Shown in pieces: positions 7,492-9,943 of a stretch of 48,182 nt of DNA (position 1 is the first letter of the stretch; each line of letters opens with the position of its first letter). A model generated the notes under the pieces. The model saw only the letters and a program-made list of their open reading frames with translations. It did not search any database and was not told the origin of the DNA. The position numbers were made by a program, and so were the translations under genes. Source of the stretch: Methanobacteriota archaeon (lineage in GTDB: Archaea; JAADCQ01; Methanopyri; Methanopyrales; Methanopyraceae); contig JAMOPY010000021.1 of assembly GCA_027064305.1 (NCBI GenBank), forward strand, positions 1-48,182, given 5' to 3'.

Positions 7492-7561
7492 TCCAGTGAG
7501 CCCCCGGCCCCCTGCCCCACTGGGATCATTAACCGCTACCGCCTCGGCACCCCCGATAGCC

Positions 7562-7574
7562 CGGTTTTAAACCG
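7562..7574. promoter_or_regulatory. Palindromic divergent TATA element (CGGTTTTAAACCG)
   Basis: The only AT-rich core in the gap between the 7042-7491 gene (-) and the 7656 gene (+). TTTTAAA reads as box A on both strands because the surrounding bases mirror each other (CGGTTT...AAACCG). A further 7-bp inverted repeat, CCGCTAC at 7533-7539 and GTAGCGG at 7574-7580, brackets it, and CCAGTG (7493-7498) mirrors CACTGG (7518-7523). Expected starts lie about 25 bp either side. The call is based on sequence only. Confidence 0.5.
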
Positions 7575-7655
7575 TAGCGGGTGGTCCGGTGTCGCGCCGC
7601 CGCCGGGCGGAAGGCTGATACCGGGCGCCGGCTGCGTGGGGACCGGGTGAGCGCG

Positions 7656-8303
7656 GTGAAGGTGACGGTGGTGGTCTCGGACGAGCCGCCGAAGGTGGAG
7701 GGATTGAAGTCGGGCCCGGGGTTCGCGGCGCTGATCGAGAACCGGAGGACGGTGCTCTTCGACACCGGGCCCAGCCCGGACCTGCTGGAGCATAACCTCA
7801 GGGAACTGGGGTACGAGCCGGACGACGTGGACTTCGTCGTGATATCCCACAACCACTGGGATCACGCGGGCGGGCTGGAGGCCGTCGCGCCCCATGCCTT
7901 GAGGGTGATCACACCGGAACGGTTGAACGTGCCGAACGAGATGGTTCGAGAGGAGTGGTTGGGGATCGACGACGAGGTCGTGCTGACCGACGTGCTCGAG
8001 GGCCCGCCGAGGGAGCGGGCCGCGTTCGTGAACGGGCTCCTGGTGACCGGGTGCGCGCACCCGGGGGTCGACCGGTTCGCGGAGTGGTGCGTTCGCCGCG
8101 GCCTGAAGGTGAGGGCGGTCCTGGGTGGGTTCCACCTGATGGGGGCGTCGCGTCGGGAGGTGGAGCGGATCGCCGACCGGCTGAGGGAGCTCGGGGTAAG
8201 GGTCGCGGGACCGTGCCACTGCTCCGGGGACCTCGCGAAGGAGGTGTTTCGGGAGCGGTTCGAGTTCGTCGACGTGGGGCCGGGGCTGGAGGTGAGGGTC
8301 TAA
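7656..8303 (+). CDS. Metallo-beta-lactamase-fold hydrolase of the COG1237 / dihydropteroate-synthase-like family
   Basis: About 215 residues with the metal ligands of the fold: SHNHWDHAGG (H-x-H-x-D-H), GCAHPG, GGFHLMG and CHCSGD. The last motif and the overall length match the COG1237 group, which includes the methanococcal enzyme reported to join the pterin and the aminobenzene ribofuranosyl phosphate in tetrahydromethanopterin synthesis. That assignment is from family knowledge, and members of this fold often have other substrates. The GTG at 7656 has a perfect GGTGA five bases upstream, which I prefer to the GTG at 7647 or the longer frame from 7581. mptE, from the same pathway, lies 1.6 kb downstream. 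Confidence 0.75.
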   Translation: MKVTVVVSDEPPKVEGLKSGPGFAALIENRRTVLFDTGPSPDLLEHNLRELGYEPDDVDFVVISHNHWDHAGGLEAVAPHALRVITPERLNVPNEMVREEWLGIDDEVVLTDVLEGPPRERAAFVNGLLVTGCAHPGVDRFAEWCVRRGLKVRAVLGGFHLMGASRREVERIADRLRELGVRVAGPCHCSGDLAKEVFRERFEFVDVGPGLEVRV

Positions 8304-8310
8304 GTGCCAA

Positions 8311-8353
8311 CCAAACCAAAGTAAAGTAAAAGTAAACCAGAGTAAAGTAAATA
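8311..8353. repeat. AT-rich tandem AGTAAAG repeat cluster, possible operator
   Basis: In an otherwise GC-rich region, the gap before the V4R gene holds a run of AGTAAA units. The 11-mer AGTAAAGTAAA occurs at 8320-8330 and again at 8341-8351, exactly 21 bp apart, which is two helical turns. A partial copy (AAGTAAACC) sits between them and CCAAACCAAAG leads in. No clear TATA box is distinguishable from the repeats. It may be a regulator-binding site or an A-rich promoter for 8388-8915. Confidence 0.5.
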
Positions 8354-8387
8354 CGACCCTCGACCGAGCCGCACGCGGGGCTGCCAG

Positions 8388-8915
8388 GTGTTCTTCCATG
8401 TGAAGGACCTGATCGAGATGGATAGGGAGAGGTCGGGGAGCGTGAGTCGGCTGGCGTTCCTCGTGGTCAGATCCATCATTTGGGACATGGAGGCGGACGG
8501 CGAGGCGAGGATTCTGGCGGAGCGGCTGGGTCGGGAAATCGTTCGCAGGGAGGGCGTCTCGAGCGTTGAGGAGGGGCTCAGACTGCTGGAGGAGATCGGA
8601 TGCGGTCGGGTCGTAGTGAACCGCGAGGAGACGCGGGAGGATGAGCGGGTGATGGATTGGGGGTACGAGACCGTCACTGTCTTCGAGTGCGTTTCGTGCG
8701 CCGGGGCGCCGGAGGTGGGTCGGACGCTGTGCTCGCTGGAGGCTGGCCTGATCGAGGGGATCGTCAGCGAGGTGAATGGTGAGGGATACTACGCGATCGA
8801 GTACGCGTGCTGGGGGCTGGGGGACGATCGATGCTCCTTCGCCCTGGTCCCGAAGGGTGATAAGGAGGGGGAGCTGAGGGTCAAGCGGATGGTTCGGGAG
8901 CGGGCGAGCGGTTAG
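8388..8915 (+). CDS. V4R-domain protein (4-vinyl-reductase fold), probable ligand sensor
   Basis: A 175-residue protein whose second half carries the V4R signature: CVSCAGAPEVGRTLC near residues 103-117 and CWGLGDDRCSF near 144-154, with conserved small-molecule or metal-ligating cysteines. V4R domains are found in bacteriochlorophyll 4-vinyl reductase accessory proteins and in many archaeal stand-alone proteins thought to bind tetrapyrrole-like or hydrophobic ligands. The N-terminal ~80 residues (VKDLIEMDRERSG) are the usual lead-in helices. An unusual repeat array lies immediately upstream. The 3' end overlaps the convergent argC by 4 bp. The exact ligand is unknown. Confidence 0.78.
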   Translation: MFFHVKDLIEMDRERSGSVSRLAFLVVRSIIWDMEADGEARILAERLGREIVRREGVSSVEEGLRLLEEIGCGRVVVNREETREDERVMDWGYETVTVFECVSCAGAPEVGRTLCSLEAGLIEGIVSEVNGEGYYAIEYACWGLGDDRCSFALVPKGDKEGELRVKRMVRERASG

Positions 8916-9943
8916 GGGTGGTACCCGAACTCCTCCAGCCCGGCGGTTTCCTCGAACCCCATCCGGATGTTCATGTTCTGGATGGCCTGGCCGGAGGCGC
9001 CCTTGACCAGGTTGTCGATGGCCGAGGCCACAACGATGCGGCCGTCGCCCACGGCGAAGACGCCGACGTCGCAGTAGTTGGTGCCTCGCACCGCCCACAG
9101 TCGGGGCGCCTCCCCGACCTCGCACAGCCGGACGAACGGCTCGTCCCCGTAGTAATCCTCGTAGAGCTCCCGGAGCTCTTCGGGCTCGATTTCCGCGTCA
9201 CCGAGGCAGTGGGCGGTCGTCTCGATGCCGCGGACGAGCGGGGCCAGGTGAGGGGTGAAGTGCACCTCCACGTCGCCCAGCTTGCCCAGCTCCTGGCGGA
9301 TCTCGGGCAGGTGCCGGTGGTCGGTGGGGTTGTACGGGGTGAGGTCCTCCGCGCACTCCGGGTGATGGGTCGTCTGGGAGGGTTTAGCGCCGGCGCCCGA
9401 GGTCCCGCTCTTGGAGTCGAAGACGATCACGTCGGCCAGGCCCTCCTCCACGATCGGGGCGGCGGCGAGGATCGCGCCGGTCGGGTAGCACCCGGGGTTG
9501 GCGATGAGGTCGGCCCTCCGGATCTCGTCGCGGTGGAGCTCGGGTAGCCCGTACACGGCCCGCTCGTTGAGGTCGGGGGCCCGGTGGTCGACCCCGTACC
9601 AGCGCTCGTACTCCTCGACGTCGTCGAACCGGAAGTCGGCGCTGAGGTCGATGACGAGGGCGCCGCCGTCGAGGAGGTCGGGGACGAGCTCCATGGCGGC
9701 GGTGTGCGGGACGGCGGTGAACACGACGTCGCACTCCTCGCCGACCTCCGCCGGGTCGGGGTCGGTGAACCGGAGATCGGGGTACTCGTCGCGAAGGTTA
9801 GGGTGCACCTTCCAGACGGGTTCTCCCTCGAGCCGGCGGGAGGTGGCGTATCGGACCTCTTCGACCTCGGGGTGACGGGCTAGGAGTCTTAGGAGCTCGC
9901 CGCCGGTGTAGCCGGAGGCGCCGATCACGCCCACGACGACCAC
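8912..9943 (-). CDS. argC: N-acetyl-gamma-glutamyl-phosphate reductase
   Basis: This 343-residue enzyme reduces N-acetylglutamyl phosphate to the semialdehyde in arginine or ornithine synthesis. In some archaea the equivalent enzyme also serves the LysW-linked lysine route. The NADP-binding start VVVGVIGASGYTGGELLRLL, the catalytic-cysteine segment ANPGCYPTGA, and GTSGAGAKPS are diagnostic. The frame is open far upstream (to 10627), but homology begins at GTG 9943, so that is taken as the start. It faces mptE with only three bases between the start codons. argF lies at 15390. Its end overlaps the V4R gene by 4 bp. Confidence 0.93.
   Translation of the reverse strand: MVVVGVIGASGYTGGELLRLLARHPEVEEVRYATSRRLEGEPVWKVHPNLRDEYPDLRFTDPDPAEVGEECDVVFTAVPHTAAMELVPDLLDGGALVIDLSADFRFDDVEEYERWYGVDHRAPDLNERAVYGLPELHRDEIRRADLIANPGCYPTGAILAAAPIVEEGLADVIVFDSKSGTSGAGAKPSQTTHHPECAEDLTPYNPTDHRHLPEIRQELGKLGDVEVHFTPHLAPLVRGIETTAHCLGDAEIEPEELRELYEDYYGDEPFVRLCEVGEAPRLWAVRGTNYCDVGVFAVGDGRIVVASAIDNLVKGASGQAIQNMNIRMGFEETAGLEEFGYHP

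Follow-up and report, generated by a model that had tools for sequence, protein, structure and literature searches.

The A-rich patch at about positions 8310-8354 of the window (the whole 48,182-nucleotide stretch of archaeal DNA analyzed here) is probably an ordinary core promoter for the V4R-domain gene that follows it, partly duplicated once in tandem. In it AGTAAA would be a purine-rich BRE and the A-rich GTAAATAC after it a weak TATA box; binding of TBP and TFB there would place the transcription start near 8375, roughly 10-15 nt upstream of the GTG start codon. A 21-bp tandem duplication inside the patch would have produced a second, distal BRE/TATA-like copy, which may either allow a second, weak start some 21 nt further upstream or do nothing, and no dedicated regulator would be needed. 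It would illustrate how a repeat with conspicuous spacing, in an archaeal genome rich in GC, can be a once-duplicated A-rich promoter. Should the second copy be functional, this would be a minor natural case of an archaeal lineage duplicating a promoter; if not, there is nothing unusual about it. The features of the region are the following.

7647..8303, + strand: upstream gene for an MBL-fold metallo-hydrolase (open reading frame; Pfam Lactamase_B, 9.4e-13, on 7647-8300; start codon at 7581 or 7647)
8304..8387, + strand: intergenic region of 84 bp containing the patch
8313..8330, + strand: distal copy of the 18-nt repeat, AAACCAAAGTAAAGTAAA (repeat search)
8334..8351, + strand: proximal copy of the 18-nt repeat, AAACCAGAGTAAAGTAAA, 17/18 identical (repeat search)
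8320..8335, + strand: the distal of two BRE/TATA-like matches, AGTAAA + GTAAAAGTAA, scoring 10.7 bits and beginning at −68 from the GTG
8341..8356, + strand: the proximal of the two, AGTAAA + GTAAATACGA, scoring 8.0 bits and beginning at −47 from the GTG
8388..8915, + strand: V4R-domain protein gene (open reading frame; Pfam PF02830, E 3.5e-14; GTG at 8388 or 8400)

Sequence and copy number of the repeat

The 11-letter sequence AGTAAAGTAAA is present in two exact copies on the + strand, at 8320-8330 and 8341-8351, with their starts 21 bp apart. The preliminary description had reported this pair, together with a partial copy between the two (AAAGTAAA, at 8329-8336) and a V4R gene downstream, and it was right on all of these points, the gene product being a true V4R protein by its Pfam match. 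The true repeat unit is longer, with 18 nt at 8313-8330 matching 8334-8351 at 17 of 18 positions and with the same spacing of 21. The run has a pentamer-like structure (AAAGT/AAACC), and Tandem Repeats Finder describes 8318-8351 as having a period of 5, with unit AAAGT and 73% matches; no inverted repeat was found in 8280-8420. From the sequence, the 21-bp spacing is best taken to be the period of a single tandem duplication within this pentamer-like A-rich run. As had been pointed out, 21 bp does correspond to two helical turns, but placement on the same helix face needs no pair of protein sites if the spacing is simply the period of a tandem duplication. The patch thus resembles other short tandem duplications or microsatellite-like A-rich runs in its 21-bp period and pentamer-like units, but differs in having only two copies and in being sited where a promoter is expected.

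No other copy of AGTAAAGTAAA is found in the window when one mismatch is allowed (shuffle expectation 0.02 matches), and an exact search of the window's own genome (G000; 1,208,994 bases) returns only the two known sites. A one-mismatch search of the same genome gives two forward and no reverse matches, and the reversed-pattern control none in either direction; the assembly is 89% complete, so a further copy could have gone unseen. There is no exact copy in four genus mates (G001, G002, G003 and G004). One-mismatch matches in these number 7, 4, 1 and 6 respectively, and the reversed-pattern control gives 4, 5, 1 and 3, so that the near-matches are at chance level. The same 21-bp pair does occur at six places in a wider genome contig collection, all in contigs of other organisms (37-51% GC over the available DNA); some of these have additional repeat units around them. 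A search of the same collection for V4R relatives gave 19 pattern-matching stretches, none of which was confirmed. Among the titles listed by literature searches, none was on this repeat element.

Composition and promoter matching

The repeat exceeds what is expected by chance for the window as a whole, less so when the A-richness of the patch is taken into account, and the 18-nt repeat is the stronger of the two. Shuffling the 44-bp patch gives an exact repeat of at least 11 nt in 61 of 5000 trials with mononucleotide shuffling and in 293 of 5000 with dinucleotide shuffling, and an 18-nt repeat with no more than one mismatch in 0 and 9 of 5000, respectively. Ten of 1500 random 84-mers from the sampled genome have such an 18-nt repeat, and among 122 upstream regions (taking the nearest 84 nt) only that of the V4R gene does, the next best repeat being of 16 nt. 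Stretches this rich in A+T are also rare: in a sample of roughly 345 kb, made up of the window and 20 other genome stretches, 12 of 344,634 44-mers have 32 or more A+T, and they fall at three places. The only others in this sample, by 44-mer start positions, are L027:17832-17839 and L034:42-43.

We built a promoter matrix from the tRNA genes of the window's genome, where 25 tRNA matches gave 24 usable upstream regions (that of L070 was too short and was dropped). The resulting 16-nt matrix has the consensus CGAAAACTTTATAAAC, which we read on its sequence as a BRE plus TATA box, and starts 42-53 nt before the mature 5′ end. Among all + strand positions of the window, the distal match ranks third and the proximal match eleventh. 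The V4R upstream region ranks 12 of 122 upstream regions derived from a rough in-house gene prediction, and no other region has two sites that reach 7.9 bits. At least one of the 122 is in fact the promoter of a tRNA: the site of the top scorer in L045 is that of the tRNA locus L066. These scores are to be read with the composition of the patch in mind. When the patch is shuffled, 2793 of 5000 mononucleotide and 2670 of 5000 dinucleotide shuffles score at least 10.72 bits, and 897 and 876 of 5000 also have a second site of at least 7.96 bits; since over half of the shuffles reach the same score, the match reflects A-richness and is not a precise motif or independent proof. The matrix is also weak upstream of protein genes, with sites of at least 8 bits in 16 of 122 regions on the coding strand versus 15 of 122 on the other strand, although divergent promoters may add to the latter count.

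Comparison with a typical archaeal BRE/TATA core promoter shows both likenesses and departures. The purine-rich AGTAAA is followed by an A/T-rich octamer, and the distance to the start codon is like that of the genome's own tRNA promoters and of the patches in congeners (see below). Departures are the presence of two copies, 21 bp apart, a transcription start that is a candidate only, and an A-rich TATA part: GTAAATAC stands in place of the TTTATAAA of the tRNA consensus, whose T-rich first half is missing from both copies. The proximal match is the likelier core promoter of the two. Its position, −47 from the GTG at 8388, would suit transcription beginning shortly upstream of the gene and is within the range of the tRNA promoters (−42 to −53). 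If the V4R gene starts instead at the GTG at 8400, which roughly aligns with the start in the congeners, the proximal copy would be at −59. For T. kodakarensis, the medians given are 23 bp from TATA box to start, 33 bp from BRE to start and 16 nt for the 5′ UTR (PMC4247193), and these figures fit the promoter reading. The box A given for M. kandleri CRISPR promoters is TTTAAA (PMC3695527).

Gene neighborhood and related genomes

The window's genome is probably Methanopyrus-like, since its genus shares a tRNA-associated motif described for M. kandleri (see the last paragraph). The MBL-fold and V4R genes are on the same strand with 84 bp between them, and the 3′ end of the V4R frame overlaps by 4 bases a convergent reading frame that we take, from its sequence, to be argC. 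G002 and G001 have the same gene order, MBL-V4R-argC, but lack the repeat. Both have a homologous A/T patch: in G002 this is AAAAATGATTATCACC, which at 9.1 bits scores highest within the 110 nt scanned, and in G001 it is GGTAAATGATATCACC, which at 6.3 bits is second to a 6.7-bit site inside the gene. Each starts at −45, a position counted by hand from start codons assigned by eye. With MAFFT the three intergenic regions align loosely. In G003, argC-like sequence directly follows the MBL gene and the V4R gene is missing at the locus; in G004 there is a different sequence after the MBL gene, and the nearest V4R relative (37% identity) is on another contig, C86. In both G002 (L014/L017) and G001 (L015/L018) the orthologous V4R gene reads across two frames, with the split at about the same point. 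Together with the absence in G003, this could be due either to sequencing error or to decay of the gene in the genus.

A fairly unlikely explanation is that the patch is neutral DNA, a low-complexity A-rich pentamer-like run that slipped and was duplicated, with the V4R gene being co-transcribed with the MBL gene from a promoter further upstream. The AAAGT/AAACC structure, the common strand and short gap between the two genes, a gene order in G002 and G001 that is kept as in an operon, and the fact that composition accounts for the promoter score are all consistent with this, and the V4R gene may indeed be read through from the MBL gene. It fits less well with the A/T patch that two congeners have, equally far from the start though without the repeat, and with patches so rich in A+T being at only three places in the roughly 345-kb sample. 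It is unlikely, too, that a 21-bp duplication private to the species constitutes a tandem BRE/TATA pair, in which TBP and TFB would load at two sites on the same face and give two starts; if it does, there would be a dosage or regulatory change for the sensor gene.

Regulators, RNA elements and a tRNA-associated palindrome

We find it doubtful that the 11-mers are operator half-sites on one helix face for a dedicated regulator, whether a partner repressor or activator or one linked to the V4R protein. The preliminary description, which held autoregulation by a partner repressor or activator to be plausible, suggested a genome-wide search for AGTAAAGTAAA near promoters, and this search yields only the two copies, with no other to form a regulon; an operator of a regulon was therefore rejected as the default, no further copies being found at other promoters in G000 (89% complete). 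The same lack of copies elsewhere in this genome is in keeping with a dedicated operator, as are the perfect 11-mers 21 bp apart, but tandem duplication accounts for the spacing, 8280-8420 is without an inverted repeat and the repeat is not conserved in the congeners. Moreover, tblastn at E 10 found no V4R relative in the available DNA flanking any of the six 21-bp pairs in other organisms.

The V4R protein is sensor-like, which would suit such regulation, but a Pfam search up to E 10 matches V4R only, with no DNA-binding domain or HTH detected. A structure model built from five sequences has a mean pLDDT of 78.1 and a pTM of 0.78, with residues 105-113 below 50 and residues 1-40 at 61-72. A fold search with this model matched MJ1460 (2osd, E 4.3e-5) and YslB, as well as the domains of PoxR and MopR that sense phenol. 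Thirteen matches had E ≤0.001, covering 150-178 columns with TM scores (by query) of 0.44-0.59 and rmsd of 4.9-11.2, although searching the PDB by sequence, up to E 1, yielded nothing. In the model almost all of the chain resembles a sensor fold, with no obvious room for a separate HTH, the N-terminal helices being predicted with modest confidence.

Another known parallel is MsvR, described as a V4R regulator of methanogens that is thought to repress its own gene (PMC3729527). An MsvR-type autoregulated promoter is similar in that a V4R-domain gene has repeated elements over a likely BRE/TATA, but its boxes are inverted repeats, given as TTCGTAN4TACGAA and located at or near the BRE/TATA (PMC3729527), and neither this nor TTCGN7-9CGAA is present in 8250-8420. 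A regulator of the MsvR type also combines an HTH at the N-terminus with V4R at the C-terminus, whereas in the V4R protein here no HTH was detected, and the NCBIfam MsvR family matches it only at positions 178-235 of 236, with 40 bits against a cut-off of 220. We thus rejected MsvR-like autoregulation, both for the missing box in 8250-8420 and for the HTH not detected. Elsewhere in G000, a gene at C40:22713-23381 is more MsvR-like, matching positions 6-235 of 236 with 100.9 bits, itself below the family cut-off of 220; it counts in favor of an operator, and a partner regulator such as its product is, judging from sequence, possible but unsupported. Dedicated regulation of the V4R gene via the repeat is likewise unsupported.

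It is very unlikely that the T-rich complement on the minus strand is a terminator of antisense transcripts from the convergent argC, or that the plus strand is an RNA element in the V4R leader: the T-richness and the overlapping 3′ ends of the V4R and convergent frames would suit a terminator, but the patch is about 560 nt past the convergent stop and has no T run above 4, and the leader element was rejected as 8304-8400 folds worse than its shuffles (z +1.98; 198 of 200 shuffles at least as good) and searching 7500-9000 against Rfam, up to E 1, gave nothing.

The tRNA loci of G000 (L047-L071) also have a recurrent element of their own, outside the window. CCA directly follows 24 of the 25 tRNA matches (CCG in L049), and by eye a palindrome like AATCGTTACGAnnnTCGTAACGATT, with several mismatches in some instances, lies a few bases downstream in 23 of 25; the exceptions are L067, which is cut off after the first palindrome arm, and L071, which ends at the CCA. 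In G000 a relaxed palindrome pattern has 44 forward matches, while the counts for the four genus mates are 18-57; the reversed-pattern control has none, so palindrome sites may outnumber the tRNAs. The palindrome is already published for M. kandleri, where CGTTA(N)9TAACG is described at a distance of about 10 bp past tRNA genes and about half of these genes have similar sequences (PMC5217627); in G000 it is nearly universal at tRNAs.
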